Shown: positions 10,819 to 35,451, counted from the first letter of the stretch. The stretch: 64,000 nucleotides of DNA from an archaeon (GCA_027343665.1 DAHWKL010000002.1:173386-237385); one strand, 5' to 3'. Made by a program: numbers and translations. The notes: generated from the sequence alone by a model not told the origin.

Positions 10819-12174
10819 ATGGCAAAAATAGGCCTAGAAATACATGGTTACATTGATACAAAAGAGAAACTTTTCTGCACTTGCCTGTCAGACCACGGAA
10901 AAAAAGACACAAAACCAAATACCAATATCTGTCCTGTTTGCACAGGACAACCCGGATCAAAACCGCTCTTGCCAAACCAGGAAGCTATAAAAAAAGCGAC
11001 AGAAATTGCTCTTTTGTTAAAATGCAAAATAAATGAAAAAATACCATGGCAGAGAAAACATTATTCATGGCCTGATTTGCCCAAAGGTTTCCAGAGCACT
11101 TTTTCCGGACCGCATGCGATACCCAACGGAGAAAGCGGAGAGTTTATGGGAATAAGAATAAGAGAATGCCATCTTGAAGAGGATCCGGCAGCTTGGAATC
11201 CGGATACAGGAGAGATAGATTACAATCGCTCAGGAAGCCCATTGATAGAAATTGTAACAGAACCGGATTTCAAAGAAAGTGAAGAAGTGGCAGAGTGGGT
11301 GAAAAATTTGATAGTTGCATTAAGTTACATAAAAGCCATAGACAAGAATTCCGGAGTGAAAGCCGATGTCAATGTCTCAATCCCCGGCGGAAAAAGAGTC
11401 GAGATGAAAAATATAAATTCCATAAAAAAGATAAAAGAAGCGATCGAAGTCGAGATTGAAAGACAGAAAAAAGATATCCCTAAATATGAAGAGACAAGGA
11501 TGTACGATGAAAAATCAAAATCGACAAAACTCATGAGGACAAAAGAAAACGCGCAGGATTACAGATTTATAACTGACCCAGACCTTCCTGTTGTGAAAAT
11601 ATCAAAAGAAGAATTGTCAAAAATAAAAAGTTCTATTCCAGAGACTCCCCAGGAAAAACTCAAAAAACTCATAAAAGTTCACAGGATAGACAAAAAGATC
11701 GCAGAGATTCTGACAAAAAAGATAGAAATAGTTGAATTTTTCGAAGAGGTTGCAAAGAAAATTCCGCCTGAATTTGCACTTCCATGGGTGACAGTAGAAC
11801 TTCTAGGAGTCCTCAATTATAATAAGAAAGAACTTGACGAAGTTGAGATAAACCCGGAGCATTTCATTGAACTTCTCGAAGCAGTTAAAGAAAAAAAGAT
11901 AACTGAGCTTCAGGCAAAAGACATTTTAAGAAGCTGGATCCCAAAGTCATATTCACCTAAAGAAAGAATAGAGAAAAGCTCAAAAATCGATGACAAAGAC
12001 GAGATACATTCTATCGCTAAAAAAGTTATCTCAGAAAACAAAAAAGCGGTCGAAGATTTCAAAAGCGGGGAAAAGAATTCTCTGAATTTCCTCATAGGTC
12101 AGATAATGAAACTTTCAAACAAAAGAGCGGATTACAAGACTGCCAAAGAAGTTTTGGAAAAGTTATTGAGATAA
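10819..12174 (+). CDS. gatB: Asp/Glu-tRNA amidotransferase subunit B
   Basis: This 451-residue protein is the kinase-amidotransferase subunit of GatCAB. It begins with the GatB/E signature GLEIHGYIDTKEKLFC and has two cysteine pairs (CTC and CPVC) forming the zinc site, then LPKGFQSTFSGPHAIPNG. The C-terminal part is the YqeY-like helical domain that binds tRNA (ITELQAKDILRSW). It follows the asparaginase-like gene. Its last 43 bases overlap, in convergent orientation, the end of the DGR reverse transcriptase gene. Confidence 0.93.
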   Translation: MAKIGLEIHGYIDTKEKLFCTCLSDHGKKDTKPNTNICPVCTGQPGSKPLLPNQEAIKKATEIALLLKCKINEKIPWQRKHYSWPDLPKGFQSTFSGPHAIPNGESGEFMGIRIRECHLEEDPAAWNPDTGEIDYNRSGSPLIEIVTEPDFKESEEVAEWVKNLIVALSYIKAIDKNSGVKADVNVSIPGGKRVEMKNINSIKKIKEAIEVEIERQKKDIPKYEETRMYDEKSKSTKLMRTKENAQDYRFITDPDLPVVKISKEELSKIKSSIPETPQEKLKKLIKVHRIDKKIAEILTKKIEIVEFFEEVAKKIPPEFALPWVTVELLGVLNYNKKELDEVEINPEHFIELLEAVKEKKITELQAKDILRSWIPKSYSPKERIEKSSKIDDKDEIHSIAKKVISENKKAVEDFKSGEKNSLNFLIGQIMKLSNKRADYKTAKEVLEKLLR

Positions 12175-13188
12175 CTACTTAGGAAGTTTCTGCTGTTTCC
12201 CAATCTTGCATAAGCTTCCCAGCCCTGCAAAAATTCTGATAAGCTCTCTAAAGAGATATTTCCTAAGTTAAACTGTTCAAGCTTTCTGTGCATATTCCTG
12301 ATATTTCTTTTTCTCAAAAGCCTGAAACGGTAAAAATTCCTGAAGCCTACAAAATCGACTCCTCTTGAGAGATTTATTATCTTGGATTTGTCAGGATGAA
12401 GTTCCAGATCCAGATTTTTTTTTAAGAAATCCTCAATTTCCCTTTTCCATATCTCCAGCTGCTCCTTTGATTTATGCAAAATCACAAAATCATCGACATA
12501 CCTTATATAATATCTGGCTTTCAATTTATGTTTTACAAATTGATCAAGCTCATTCAGGTAAATGTTCGCGAAAAATTGGGAAGTCAGATTTCCGAGAGGC
12601 ATCCCTTTTGAAGATAATTTGACGCAGTCGCTCACCCCCCCCCGAACCGGAGCCGTTCTCAAGAATTTTCTTTGTAAGAAAAAGAACTTTTTCATCGGAA
12701 AGTTTCCTCGCTATTATCCTTAAAAGAATGTTTCGGTCTATCTCCTGAAAATAATGTTTTATATCTGCTTTGAAGCAAAATCCTCCCGAGGTGAAATTTC
12801 GGGTGACTTTCCTTTCAAAGTTCTCGAACCTCTCAAGAGCGAATAAAGTCCCTTTCCCTTTCCTGTTTGCGCAGCTGTCATAAATAAAAGTCTTGTCAAA
12901 AATCGGCTCGATTATATTGCACAATGCATGGTGGACAATCCTGTCTCGAAAGTCCGACTTTGAAATTTTGCGGGTTTTAGGGTCGCGCAAAACAAAAGTC
13001 TTCATAGGTCTTGGCATATAAGATTGGTTCTCAAGTTCATCATGCAAAATCTTCAGATTGTAAGCCAGATCTTCATTGAACTTTTTGACGTAATCCTTAT
13101 ATGTCTTTCCTTTCCTTGCCCTGCTGTAAGCAATAATCAGGTTCTTCAAAGAAATGATTTCTGAGTACAGGTTATTGCAGGTTTTCAT
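12132..13188 (-). pseudogene. DGR reverse transcriptase, frameshifted at a G9 tract
   Basis: Two overlapping frames, 12550-13188 and 12132-12695, together encode one reverse transcriptase of about 351 residues. The N-terminal part has MPRPMKTFVLRDPKTRK and the motif A segment FKADIKHYFQEID. The C-terminal part has GMPLGNLTSQFFANIYL and the catalytic RYVDDFVI. The GNLTSQ form of motif 4 is diagnostic of diversity-generating retroelement RTs, as opposed to the PQG form of group II introns. Removing one G from the tract at 12635-12643 joins the frames seamlessly. All catalytic motifs are present, so the break is recent, an assembly error, or regulated slippage. It lies just downstream of the template repeat. 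No Avd-type accessory gene is seen. Confidence 0.92.
12635..12643 (-). other. Nine-G homopolymer where the RT frame breaks
   Basis: The sense strand has nine consecutive G. With nine the N-terminal frame runs on as GGGERLRQ; with eight it reads GGVSDCVKLSSKGMPLGN straight into motif 4. This may be a sequencing or assembly length error, or a slippage-prone switch. Confidence 0.85.
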
Positions 13189-13211
13189 CTTAAAAGTCCC
13201 GGAGATAAATT

Positions 13212-13295
13212 ATTCCAAGGTCGGAATTGGCGTTAGACGGATTCCTGTTGCAATTCAGGTTAGCCCTGTCGGAATTCGCGTTGAACCTCGCGACC
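13212..13295 (-). repeat. DGR template repeat (TR)
   Basis: This 84-bp noncoding repeat lies 24 bases upstream of the RT start. It aligns without gaps to VR1 (13544-13627) and VR2 (14281-14364). On the sense strand it contains eight AAY codons in the target-protein frame; read in that frame it would encode VARFNANSDRANLNCNRNPS and continue with NANSDLG. Of 23 adenines (T on the + strand), 19 are substituted in at least one VR. None of the other 61 bases is changed. Homology ends sharply at both sides. It would be transcribed, copied with adenine errors and used to overwrite the VRs. Confidence 0.96.
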
Positions 13296-13521
13296 GCCTA
13301 GCCGAATTACCATTTGCCACCGCGGTTTCAATTTTCGCTTAAAGCTACCGATTGTCGCCGCTGAATTTTACTGGTCCGCTTTGCGGACACTAATAATCCG
13401 GCGTGTAGTCCATCTCCACATCTCCTGTTCAAAGAGACAGAAGTTTTAGGACAAAAACTCAAGTGCACATCTGTTTAAAATTTTTGCGGGTGGCTTAATT
13501 TCATGCCGGCGAGCAAAGCAT
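13296..13521 (-). ncRNA. Noncoding leader between VR1 gene and TR
   Basis: This roughly 226-bp stretch has no convincing open frame. It is more GC-rich than its surroundings and contains a strong hairpin GTCCGC-TTT-GCGGAC (13374-13388). In characterised DGRs, sequence flanking TR is part of the RNA needed for template-primed cDNA synthesis, so this probably forms the 5' part of the TR RNA. The boundaries and role are inference. Confidence 0.5.
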
Positions 13522-14217
13522 TCATAAGCGCCTGACGGCGCGTACCCCAAGGTCGGAAATGGCGCCAGACGGACCCCGGTAGCAACTCAGGAAAGCCCCG
13601 CCGGAATCCGCGTCGAACCTCGCGACCGATTTATTGTCTTTCATAGGAGCATAATAATACAGTTTTCCTTCTTTAACATCCGACTTTGGAAGCCCCTGGG
13701 GGGTATGGTTATCCAAATAATCTTCAAGGGAGATTCCTGGAGTCCTGCTCGTCATCAGAGTATCGTCGGCAAGGGCATCAGAATCCTTAGGAATAAGATT
13801 CCCTGATGAATCAAGAATATGATTGTAATTCACATATAACTGCTCCCCTTTCACCTTGAAATCGGCGTCAAGCCACTCTGCTCTCCAAGGCGATTTTACC
13901 TCTGTGATGTCGTCATATATATCTTTATGGTTTACCTTGGTGTATTTAAGGAATTCAACGAATTCCGGAATCGTGAGCATTCTGCTGTTCTCACCCAAAA
14001 GCCCCTTGTGGCAGTCAAACCAATTCTCCCCAAGAAAGCTCTTTTCTCTCGCGACATAAAGATTTACTGTAGGAACATAAATGAAACCGTCGAGATTCGG
14101 GGCATTTGCCGGAGAAGCCTGCGAATTGCTTTTTGGAGGCTCCTCACTCATGATTCTTTCATAGACTTTCCTCATTTCTTCTTCGTTGCTTCCTTCAAAC
14201 ATCTTTGGTAGTTTCAT
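13522..14217 (-). CDS. DGR variable target protein 1 (C-type-lectin-like)
   Basis: This is a 231-residue protein whose last ~35 residues are encoded by VR1 and end in SDLGVRAVRRL. The C-terminal domain (GKLYYYAPMKDNKSVARF onward) has the form of the formylglycine-generating-enzyme/C-type-lectin fold used by DGR targets. The final LGVRAVR matches the closing strand of that fold. The first 24 residues, containing GSNEEEMRKVYERIMSE, are almost identical to those of target protein 2 and may be a docking or sorting tag. No signal peptide is present, suggesting an intracellular protein. Variable residues relative to TR include N to D, G, F, S, Y and I. It lies downstream of VP2 and the ATPase. Confidence 0.9.
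   Translation of the reverse strand: MKLPKMFEGSNEEEMRKVYERIMSEEPPKSNSQASPANAPNLDGFIYVPTVNLYVAREKSFLGENWFDCHKGLLGENSRMLTIPEFVEFLKYTKVNHKDIYDDITEVKSPWRAEWLDADFKVKGEQLYVNYNHILDSSGNLIPKDSDALADDTLMTSRTPGISLEDYLDNHTPQGLPKSDVKEGKLYYYAPMKDNKSVARFDADSGGAFLSCYRGPSGAISDLGVRAVRRL
13528..13541 (-). other. Hairpin at the 3' edge of VR1
   Basis: GCGCC and GGCGC form a 5-bp GC stem around a four-base loop, immediately downstream of VR1 in the coding sense. Known DGRs need a short hairpin or cruciform just after the VR for efficient target recognition. An identical one follows VR2. The same bases also encode the last residues of the protein. Confidence 0.65.
13544..13627 (-). repeat. DGR variable repeat VR1
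   Basis: Ungapped 84-bp match to TR with 16 differences, every one at a TR adenine on the sense strand. Changes are to G, C or T. It encodes the target residues VARFDADSGGAFLSCYRGPS and the following GAISDLG. The two differences next to its 3' end (13545, 13546) are shared with VR2 and may belong to the initiation (IMH) boundary rather than mutagenesis. Confidence 0.95.
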
Positions 14218-14258
14218 TTTGTTTTGTCCTTATTTTATTTGCCAGCGAGCAAATCCTT

Positions 14259-15002
14259 TTACAAGCGCCTGACGGCGCGTACCCCAAGGTCGGAATTGGC
14301 GTCAGACGGATACCTGATGCAATTCAGGCCAGCCCCGCCGGAACTCGCGCCGAACCTCGCGACCCTTCCATCTATTGGGTGCCAAAAGTAGATCTTTTCT
14401 CCTTTATTATAACTTTGAGTTGAAGAAGTGCTCGTCGGGATTCCCTGGGTGCTCAGTTTGGAAAAATCAACCCATCCGTCTTGCGTCAGGCAAGATTCAA
14501 GGTCTTCTTTCTTGGTTACAAGATTATCATTATTGTCAAAACCTGTGACATACTCGATTGATTTTTTCTTTCTTGAAATGTCAAATTTCGCATTCAGCCA
14601 TGTCCAGCAGTCCGAAGTGAGCTGCTTGTATAAGTCTTCTCTTGTTGCATCGCTTAGGAGATTTCCATTCGCGTCAAAAATGGTCTTCCCATTCTTGTAA
14701 GAATCAATAATGTGATTATGAAAAGCCATGAACTCTTTTATTGTCGGAACATAAAGATTCCTTTTCATCACAGCCAGATTTGCCCTGTTGTAGTCAAGCC
14801 CCTTGTCTGTTTCTCCTATCGCGATAACGAATTTCTCTCCGGGAATCTGAACATAATCTGAACCTGTTATATTGGACGGGATTGTTATTGGATTAGGGAG
14901 AGGATCCTGCTTTGGAAGCTCATTCTTTTCGCTCATGATTCTTTCATAGACTTTCCTCATTTCCTCTTCGTTGCTTCCGTCGAATGTCTTTGGGAGTTTC
15001 AT
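14259..15002 (-). CDS. DGR variable target protein 2 (C-type-lectin-like)
   Basis: This is a 247-residue paralogue of target protein 1. It shares the N-terminal 24 residues (GSNEEEMRKVYERIMSE) and the C-terminal lectin-like domain, ending in the identical SDLGVRAVRRL. The central part differs strongly (for example YVQIPGEKFVIAIGETDKG and YVPTIKEFMAFHNHII), so the two may have different frameworks around a similar variable face. VR2 encodes its last ~35 residues. It starts three bases downstream of the AAA+ ATPase stop, so they form one transcript. No signal peptide is visible. Confidence 0.9.
   Translation of the reverse strand: MKLPKTFDGSNEEEMRKVYERIMSEKNELPKQDPLPNPITIPSNITGSDYVQIPGEKFVIAIGETDKGLDYNRANLAVMKRNLYVPTIKEFMAFHNHIIDSYKNGKTIFDANGNLLSDATREDLYKQLTSDCWTWLNAKFDISRKKKSIEYVTGFDNNDNLVTKKEDLESCLTQDGWVDFSKLSTQGIPTSTSSTQSYNKGEKIYFWHPIDGRVARFGASSGGAGLNCIRYPSDANSDLGVRAVRRL
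14265..14278 (-). other. Hairpin at the 3' edge of VR2
   Basis: Same GCGCC-loop-GGCGC hairpin as after VR1, two bases from the repeat edge. Its conservation contrasts with the differing sequence just beyond the stop codons, which supports a role in retrohoming as well as in coding. Confidence 0.65.
14281..14364 (-). repeat. DGR variable repeat VR2
   Basis: Ungapped 84-bp match to TR with 12 differences, all at TR adenines on the sense strand. It encodes VARFGASSGGAGLNCIRYPS and the following DANSDLG. It differs from VR1 at many of the same codons, so the two repeats have been diversified independently. Confidence 0.95.
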
Positions 15003-15005
15003 TTC

Positions 15006-16232
15006 TTATTTGCCTCCTGAATTTTCCTCAACTGCTTTTTCTAGGAAATTTCTCATAAATCCCCACCTTCCCGTGAATCTATCAAGGATTTTCTTTGATT
15101 TCTTGCCCTCTTCAGCCATGATTATCCCTGCCTTAATGTTCTCTTTTTGGGATTCATACTGCGCTCTTGTTGCCTGCACTACTGCGTCCATAGTTGAATA
15201 TTTGTCATTTTGATAAACTTCCCTAACTGCCATGTCATTGAGGATTCCGGAATAAGCCCCAACGAACTTGAAAGCCTGCATCATAGAATCAAAATAATTT
15301 TCCCTGATCTTATCCTCTGAAACTCCTTTTCCCTTCAGGACATGGTCAAAAGACTGGGACAATCTTAATATGGATTTTGCCGCCCTTGGAGAAACTGGCA
15401 AAACCAAAGCCTCGTCAGAGCCCTGCCCGTGATTTGTGACCTGATTTGGCCAGGCGTCTTTCATCTTGGTCTTGCTGTAAGGCCTTCCTCCGACCTCGAC
15501 ATAATCAAGCCCGTGAATTAGGTAATTTGCCACGACCATTTTTTCAAAAGGAATCTCAGACGATACAACTTCATTGTGAGCCTTAAGGACTTCCTTCTCC
15601 AGGCCCCCGTCTTCTGATTGTTTTGAGAAATCAACTCTTGGGTTCGTGTTCCCGGAAAGAATGTTGAAAGTGTCCCAGGCCGTGGGCTTGAAATAATCAG
15701 TGTCTATCGTGACATGCATCCTGTCTTTAAGGGCTCTTCCAAGATCGTTGTTTGATTCCGTGAATTTCTGGCCGATATTCCCTGTTGCGATTCCGACCGA
15801 ATAGCCGTTTCCTATCGGAAAAGTTTTCCCGTTTATCTCGACAAATCCATCGAAAAGATTGAATAGCTGAGCTCTTACTGCAGGAACACAATTCGGGAGT
15901 TCATCTACTACAAAAAGATTGTAATTGATCTTGTCAGTCAGTTCTTTTAGCTCCTGGCTTGAAGAGGCTGTCTTTATCTTCCCAAGGTTTATCTGTTGGA
16001 ACAATTCCCTTGTATCCATATCATTTCTTCCAAGAACGAACATCGATTTTCCAGGGAAATAATCCATCGCATCTTTGGCAAGCTGTGTCTTACCGGAGCC
16101 TGTGTCTCCCTGTAAGAATAAATTCAGTCTGCCGTAGAGGCAGGCATCGACAAAATCATTCATATGCAAAGGCTTTCCCGCGATGTTCGCGAGTTCCGTT
16201 GAATTCTGATAGACTCCTTTATGCCCTTCCAT
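15006..16232 (-). CDS. MoxR-like AAA+ ATPase of the DGR operon
   Basis: This is a 408-residue AAA+ protein. Walker A is GDTGSGKTQLAKD (residues ~42-54), Walker B is LFVVDELPNCVP, followed by a MoxR-like sensor 1 region (GIATGNIGQKF) and an arginine-containing segment (LGRALKDRMHVTID). The C-terminal ~150 residues are helical. MoxR-type ATPases act as chaperones that remodel partner proteins. It overlaps the RHH gene upstream by 14 bases and is three bases from target protein 2. That arrangement suggests the ATPase handles or is controlled by the variable proteins. AAA+ ATPases next to DGR targets are known in predicted conflict systems; the assignment here is inference. Confidence 0.88.
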   Translation of the reverse strand: MEGHKGVYQNSTELANIAGKPLHMNDFVDACLYGRLNLFLQGDTGSGKTQLAKDAMDYFPGKSMFVLGRNDMDTRELFQQINLGKIKTASSSQELKELTDKINYNLFVVDELPNCVPAVRAQLFNLFDGFVEINGKTFPIGNGYSVGIATGNIGQKFTESNNDLGRALKDRMHVTIDTDYFKPTAWDTFNILSGNTNPRVDFSKQSEDGGLEKEVLKAHNEVVSSEIPFEKMVVANYLIHGLDYVEVGGRPYSKTKMKDAWPNQVTNHGQGSDEALVLPVSPRAAKSILRLSQSFDHVLKGKGVSEDKIRENYFDSMMQAFKFVGAYSGILNDMAVREVYQNDKYSTMDAVVQATRAQYESQKENIKAGIIMAEEGKKSKKILDRFTGRWGFMRNFLEKAVEENSGGK

Positions 16233-16365
16233 CTTCTCCCTCCAAAAATTTAGTGAGCGCGAATTCCAGGATATGAGACTTGTTCCTGAAAAATCCTCTT
16301 TTCAGTATTACTTCTATTCTTTTGACTTTCTCTTCGTCAACAGTTATGCTGAGTTTTTGTTTCAT
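16219..16365 (-). CDS. 48-residue ribbon-helix-helix regulator, first gene of the DGR operon
   Basis: This short frame starts at ATG 16363-16365. The sequence begins MKQKLSITVDEEKVKRIEVI and continues through FRNKSHILEFALTKFLEGE, the complete beta-alpha-alpha pattern of a CopG/Arc protein with the usual N-K-S-H turn between helices. Its stop overlaps the ATPase start by 14 bases, which implies translational coupling. An inverted repeat sits over its start region. It most likely represses the operon, limiting both diversification and target expression. Confidence 0.8.
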   Translation of the reverse strand: MKQKLSITVDEEKVKRIEVILKRGFFRNKSHILEFALTKFLEGEDGRA

Positions 16366-34890: not shown

Positions 34891-35451
34891 ATGGCATTAT
34901 TTTCAAAGAAAAAAGATAACAAGGAACCCACAATTCCAAAACTTCCGGATCTTCCAAGCTTGCCTTCATTGCCTTCTAGATTCCCCGATATGAATTCTTC
35001 AGAGGACAATGAAATTCCCGAATTGCCCAGTTTCCCCACGGGGGGGGTCGGGGACAAATTCTCAAGAGACACTATAAAAAATGCAATTTCGGGGGATGAT
35101 GATGACGAACCGATAATATCTCCGGAAGAACTAGTTCCGAAACCAGCCATGATTCCTCAAAAACCAATGTCAATGGAGAGGATGAAAAAAATCACCCCCA
35201 TGGAAAGACCTGAAGAAAGAGCAATTCCCAAGGAAACAGGACCGGTTTTCATAAGGATAGACAAATTTGAAGAGGCGCTTAATATATTCAAGGAAACAAG
35301 GAAAAAGATAGAAGAGATTGAAAGTCTTCTTGGTGAGACTAAAGAAATAAAACAGAAGGAAGAAGAGGAATTGTCAACCTGGGAAGAAGAGATACAAGAG
35401 ATGAAACAGCAAATAGAAAAGGTTGACAGAGATATTTTCTCAAGAATATAA
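34891..35451 (+). CDS. Proline-rich/coiled-coil protein, first of a pair
   Basis: This is a 186-residue protein. The N-terminal half is disordered and rich in Pro, Leu and Ser (IPKLPDLPSLPSLPSRFPD); the C-terminal half (residues ~110-186) is a charged coiled coil. It overlaps the next gene by one base (TAATG), so the two are produced together and may form a complex. No family recognised. A GGTG motif upstream may serve as ribosome-binding site. Confidence 0.65.
   Translation: MALFSKKKDNKEPTIPKLPDLPSLPSLPSRFPDMNSSEDNEIPELPSFPTGGVGDKFSRDTIKNAISGDDDDEPIISPEELVPKPAMIPQKPMSMERMKKITPMERPEERAIPKETGPVFIRIDKFEEALNIFKETRKKIEEIESLLGETKEIKQKEEEELSTWEEEIQEMKQQIEKVDRDIFSRI

Follow-up and report, generated by a model that had tools for sequence, protein, structure and literature searches.

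A simple-sequence repeat in the reverse transcriptase of DPANN diversity-generating retroelements as a probable contingency locus

A stretch of 64,000 nt from an archaeal genome of 812 kb (GCA_027343665.1 DAHWKL010000002.1:173386-237385, below referred to as the window) carries on its minus strand a diversity-generating retroelement (DGR). Its two target genes bear the marks of past mutagenesis, but its reverse transcriptase (RT) is frameshifted by a run of nine guanines (G9). Is the enzyme of such an element dead, misread, or switched off? Comparison with related loci makes it probable that the RT of these DPANN DGRs is a simple-sequence-repeat (SSR) contingency locus toggled by slippage, which we read as phase-variable, mostly-OFF control of a targeted hypermutator.

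The evidence that the locus has mutagenised its targets comes from the template repeat (TR) and the two variable repeats (VR1 and VR2). The TR aligns without gaps with both VRs, and all 28 differences (21 A>G, 6 A>T and 1 A>C) fall at TR adenines, so that 19 of the 23 adenines and none of the 61 other bases are altered. The probability of such confinement by chance is 4e-12 for the 16 changes in VR1 and 1e-8 for the 12 in VR2. Both VRs share two of these alterations, at the 3' edge (GGAAT to GGGGT), which probably reflect a fixed TR/VR boundary difference; without them, 14 and 10 informative changes remain, respectively. Recomputing the alignment and recounting the eight AAY codons of the TR in the target frame gave the same values as a preliminary description of this DNA made from its sequence, and the past mutagenic retrohoming claimed there is well supported by the adenine-only signature. 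The locus is thus, on good support, a DGR that mutagenised two targets. The TR, within an RNA, would be copied with errors at adenines, and the error-bearing cDNA would replace, in each target gene, the VR located at the 3' end; the result of these steps is visible in the signature, while their mechanism is borrowed from established knowledge of DGRs. Anywhere in the 812-kb genome, there is no VR beyond VR1 and VR2, and a search with Pfam RVT_1 found no second RT.

The RT itself is split over two overlapping open reading frames (ORFs), and is not intact because the G9 tract sets its halves in different frames; dropping one G restores an RT of 351 aa. Among solved structures, the joined protein is closest to the PDB 8ub7 series (E=2e-43; the top-scoring group II intron RT reaches 3e-22), a comparison that the preliminary description had proposed as a check and that came out in favour of a DGR enzyme. 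The database label of this series is just 'Reverse transcriptase', and we take it to be the DGR RT of Bordetella phage BPP-1. Both DGR-type motifs named earlier, GNLTSQ and YVDD, are present, and the RTs of the nearest relatives adjoin adenine-only TR/VR pairs. Of the features that define the class, an adenine-only TR/VR pair and an RT of the DGR group (in the joined frame) are therefore found, while an intact RT reading frame is absent: the locus is a DGR by its remaining features, and reads OFF. It had been called complete, which is not true of the sequence as it stands; the two halves had been joined without comment, and both the repeat frameshift and a structured RNA described below were overlooked. 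The genome holds only one other G9 tract, which lies in frame within a ROK-kinase-like gene (assigned by its motif), and therefore some G tracts are no switch. A further run, of eight G, occurs in the window at 35040-35047.

The position of the tract recurs in other genomes. This RT was found in 69 of 180 genomes of the family to which the window belongs, and the cassette, described earlier as unusual, is typical of an already known kind of DPANN DGR; 80 related loci, nearly all DPANN, usually have the order target with VR, RT-16 RNA, TR and RT. In roughly every second RT of the family, the loop just before GMPLGNLTSQ contains a simple-sequence repeat, either poly-G of up to G14 or (GA)n of up to 54 nt. 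For a quantitative comparison, a set of 173 RT genes (171 kb), including the majority of the RTs listed for the family, was used, and a long repeat was defined as a G or C run of at least 7 or a dinucleotide of at least 5 units. Of 54 long repeats, 46 (with locus L130 counted twice) fall in this loop, which makes up 6.7% of the sequence (p=8e-46). Runs of at least eight G number 27 in the loop, against 0.1 expected across 171 kb at the base composition of the genes. Five of the eight long repeats outside the loop are G10-12 tracts just past YVDD, all in RTs without a long loop repeat, and these RTs are frameshifted as well (L060, L067, L218 and L220, with L208 being a second copy of L060). A control set of 71 viral and bacterial DGR RTs yielded one C8 run and zero frameshifts.

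The length of the tract goes together with the frame of the gene. Short tracts (up to G7, or GA up to 13 nt) were in frame in 15 of 15 cases, as were 105 of the 110 RTs with no repeat, whereas longer tracts were out of frame in 33 of 41 cases and in frame in 8 (Fisher p=5e-22 in comparison with RTs whose tract is short or absent). Both wrong frames are occupied, by 9 and 12 of the G tracts and by 3 and 10 of the GA tracts. The tract itself is read as glycine (poly-G) or as glutamate and arginine, (GA)n, whatever the frame, and does not introduce a stop. The locus thus has features of a contingency locus: a repeat within the gene, with a unit not divisible by three, far above chance, and with lengths giving ON and OFF among relatives. 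In a structure model of the in-frame relative L103 (predicted local distance difference test, pLDDT, 87), the tract lies between the helix that follows motif A and motif B, in a loop (about residues 178-192) that is among the least certain stretches of the model; the solved relative has a short loop at this position. Separately, C-terminal extensions of roughly 100-200 residues were noticed on some DPANN DGR RTs (L021, L025, L124, L126 and L129).

Out-of-frame loci do not look decayed. The comparison of TR with VR in loci with an out-of-frame repeat showed changes at 489 of 865 adenine sites (57%) and at 28 of 1887 other sites (1.5%). The corresponding figures were 155 of 268 and 2 of 599 for loci with an in-frame repeat, and 899 of 1801 (50%) and 69 of 4236 (1.6%) for in-frame loci without a repeat. 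Stops inside a half were found in one out-of-frame gene only (L146), leaving aside the artefactual pairing L130b954. The adenine-only VRs and the open RT halves argue that out-of-frame RTs were functional not long ago or remain so in part of the cells. On the RT tree, RTs with and without a repeat, and with G and GA tracts, are interleaved; parsimony gives 28 changes between repeat and none, and well supported branches force at least 10 of these. In L003, the nearest row to the window on this tree, the place of the G9 is taken by a short GA tract that is in frame. The loop appears to turn over fast, yet to keep regaining tracts with a unit of 1 or 2 nt. The repeat, its position, the frames, the recurrence and the preserved RT halves are observed directly.

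In the mechanism we propose, replication slippage would change the length of the repeat in the disordered loop between motifs A and B. With the repeat in frame, the RT would be made and the targets diversified; with the repeat out of frame, the RT would be cut off before the catalytic YVDD and the targets frozen. The assembly at hand, with G9, would be an OFF allele, one G fewer being in frame. Slippage, its reversibility and its effect on mutagenesis are what we infer from the patterns above. Several observations weigh against this interpretation. Length change within populations is presumed from comparison across genomes: the compared RT set holds no near-identical pair differing in tract length alone, and viral contigs scanned for near-identical RTs with other tract lengths gave at best 43% identity or less and were reused as controls. 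Homopolymer assembly errors increase with length. The 3' flanks are conserved beyond what plain slippage explains, poly-G loop tracts being followed by CGAA in 21 of 29 cases and many (GA)n tracts by CGCG. Moreover, long tracts are OFF in excess: in the family-fetched set, a long loop tract is present in 36 of 73 RTs, 6 in frame and 30 out, and 30/36 exceeds the two thirds expected for random frames (p=0.03), while GA tracts of at least 14 nt (14-54 nt) are out of frame in 13 of 13 cases. Because long tracts, GA above all, exceed the random OFF share, some long GA tracts may be locked off; alternatively, the ON state could be costly and kept rare.

The strongest rival to a DNA-slippage switch holds that a steady fraction of full-length RT is made across the tract by programmed ribosomal frameshifting or by transcriptional slippage, so that out of frame would not mean OFF. 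It would account for the clean adenine-only VRs retained at out-of-frame loci and for the predominance of the out-of-frame state among long tracts. A programmed shift, however, requires one direction, whereas each repeat type shows +1, +2 and in-frame tracts; the upstream frame also ends at scattered points, its stop lying between -41 and +58 nt relative to the motif. We consider this explanation unlikely, though it deserves more weight than the remaining ones. The same scatter, from 41 nt before to 58 nt after, leaves no conserved coupling for a stable two-subunit RT whose 3' half would start at the conserved Met of GMPLGN. An ATG does follow the loop in nearly all RTs, but this Met is equally conserved in unsplit RTs, and many 3' frames have no other start, which makes a two-subunit enzyme the most remote of the alternatives.

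Could the RT of the window simply be intact, with the tract length miscalled in sequencing or assembly? The frameshift amounts to exactly one G within G9, and such errors grow with run length. The repeats themselves, on the other hand, are real and recur in dozens of independent assemblies; the dinucleotide tracts, which are no homopolymers, are out of frame in all 13 long cases, and RTs free of a repeat are in frame with few exceptions (105/110). A miscall is accordingly quite improbable. Slightly less credible still is a dying pseudogene in a loop that tolerates low-complexity sequence, even though frameshifted bacterial DGR RTs are known and have been taken as recent inactivation (PMC3521204). 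Nearly all out-of-frame repeat RTs are free of stops in both halves while their terminal branches are long (median, 0.26 changes per site), and the VRs of these loci show no excess decay. Decay also would not predict repeats of 1- and 2-nt units at one site in many lineages.

With slippage at the tract as the preferred explanation, we also favour, with somewhat less assurance, a clade-wide two-tier mutator: the repeat would activate the hypermutator in a small minority of cells; these few would explore, and fixed receptors would be kept by most, a phase variation of the diversifier itself. The locus resembles the SSR contingency loci of Neisseria, Haemophilus, Campylobacter and Helicobacter in its poly-G or dinucleotide tract within a gene, short tracts being in frame and long ones variable; unlike those, it is archaeal, and the gene switched would be a DGR mutator rather than a surface structure or a modification enzyme. 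Published descriptions of DPANN DGRs go back to 2015 (Paul et al. 2015, PMC4372165). The DGRs of Nanoarchaeota/DPANN in that paper and in PMC10907252 (clade 5F) are like the present locus in RT kinship, adenine-specific TR/VR and VRs in orphan targets, with several DGRs per genome in relatives; the accessible parts of both sources do not mention an RT-loop repeat with a frameshift. The open literature searched gave no report linking DGRs with phase variation, SSR or contingency loci, or frameshifts, and an earlier mention is possible. Little is known of DGR regulation, and annotation would score many DPANN DGR RTs as broken. If the repeat is a switch, these 'broken' genes would belong to working systems as their OFF alleles, existing metagenome reads would allow a direct test of how DGRs of uncultured archaea are regulated, repeat-based phase variation would extend to DPANN archaea, and two modes of localised hypermutation would be joined in one locus.

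The template RNA of the element appears to include a structured leader. The 149 nt directly 5' of the TR match the Rfam family RT-16 (RF03019), which scored above the cut-off in 13 of 14 related loci tested, the match ending at the 5' edge of the TR in nearly all. RT-16 matches over the cut-off occur in 76 of 279 genomes of the phylum and in 0 of 14 control genomes, and this RT lies beside RT-16 in 17 of 20 fetched RT-16 loci (1.5-kb flank). Compensatory changes were found in 17 of 18 predicted pairs (33 sequences). We conclude that the template RNA of these DGRs has RT-16 as its leader; the Rfam family is now placed at a defined position of a defined element. The TR would then be copied from an RNA with the RT-16 structure as its 5' leader. 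The DGR of phage BPP-1, the best solved RT relative by sequence, is alike in its RT motifs, the hairpin after the VR, and adenine mutagenesis. Unlike BPP-1, the cassette lacks an ORF where an Avd gene would lie, has a gap of just about 24 nt from TR end to RT start (about 20-50 nt in the 80 related loci), and carries a structured RNA 5' of the TR. A 46-aa GTG frame, mostly within RT-16, is the single same-strand ORF of at least 40 aa in the interval from VR1 to TR; a genome-wide search with an Avd model was not made. The accessory protein Avd is not part of every DGR. RT-16 may do here what Avd and the 3' spacer RNA do in BPP-1.

Features of the cassette are collected in Table 1. The hairpin past each VR doubles as coding sequence for the C-terminus of the target; its loop, GTCA, differs from the GRNA reported for phage DGRs (PMC3240598). 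Among relatives, a GC-rich hairpin 3' of the VR was present in 73 of 117, against 5 in shuffled sequences, and its loop is GAA in 39 of the 73. With regard to a C-type lectin-like domain around the VR, neither target has a Pfam match; the structure model of target 2 is of low confidence, poor over the VR (pLDDT about 30), and gave no fold match. Target 1 and RT-16 are separated by 79 nt (13442-13520), and the 3' end of the RT overlaps a convergent gatB-like gene (10819-12174) by 43 nt (12132-12174).

Table 1. Parts of the DGR cassette, with positions counted from the first nucleotide of the window
Feature	Position	Strand	Remarks
RT 3' part (motif B GMPLGNLTSQ, YVDD, thumb)	12132..12695	-	PF00078 E=7e-15; phrog_1423 E=6e-58; frame differs from 5' part
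RT 5' part (fingers to motif A)	12550..13188	-	phrog_1423 E=7e-59; group II RT/maturase model E=7e-20; out of frame past G tract
G9 tract (C9 on +), proposed contingency locus	12635..12643	-	one G fewer gives joined 351-aa RT
TR	13212..13295	-	only three copies in genome: TR, VR1, VR2
RT-16 structured RNA (Rfam RF03019), proposed TR-RNA leader	13293..13441	-	76.2 bits, gathering score (cut-off) 50; covariation
Hairpin GCGCC-GTCA-GGCGC directly past VR1	13528..13541	-	
Target gene 1 (231 aa), VR1 at its 3' end	13522..14217	-	homologues at other DGR loci
VR1	13544..13627	-	16 adenine-only differences from TR
Hairpin GCGCC-GTCA-GGCGC directly past VR2	14265..14278	-	identical to VR1 hairpin
Target gene 2 (247 aa), VR2 at its 3' end	14259..15002	-	N-terminal 25 aa common to target 1
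VR2	14281..14364	-	12 adenine-only differences from TR
MoxR-like AAA+ ATPase (AAA_5)	15006..16232	-	PF07728 E=1e-9; 59% identical AAA+ upstream of L008 DGR
48-aa ORF, cassette start	16219..16365	-	putative ribbon-helix-helix, judged by eye only

The AAA+ gene has company at related loci. At L008 (1196-5679) and L070 (14-5092), an AAA+ gene, DGR targets and a protein of ~570-600 aa with HExxH and a vWA-like DxSxS motif are grouped, and the same kind of protein is grouped with DGR targets at L007 (167-3419). Its motifs were read from the sequence, as it has no Pfam match, and no such vWA-metallopeptidase-like protein was found in the genome of the window. The grouping resembles MoxR-vWA conflict systems; clade 5F DGRs are said, in PMC10907252, to lack conflict-system domains.

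The tracts and their flanks also occur outside the RT. G9CGAA has 27 copies in 164 genomes of the family (1 for the reversed control), 17 of them in the RT loop, and the remaining 10 include sites at or next to the 5' ends of genes for secreted-looking proteins. In three instances (L245:1500, L253:1500 and L248:1499), G9 with CGAA lies at or just upstream of the 5' end of a gene for a secreted-looking protein with a hydrophobic N-terminus. It is possible that genes tagged in this manner are phase-variable surface genes of these archaea. (GA)8CGCG has 6 copies in the family genomes, 5 of them in the RT loop by coordinates. At L263:721-768, (GA)22 followed by CGCGGAAG lies in a short ORF reading ...RRGEYWSGSERERER...DAEESFNFVFGWGRG, and both repeat and flank are those of the RT loop; judged by eye, the end of this ORF resembles a lectin/DUF1566-type C-terminus.

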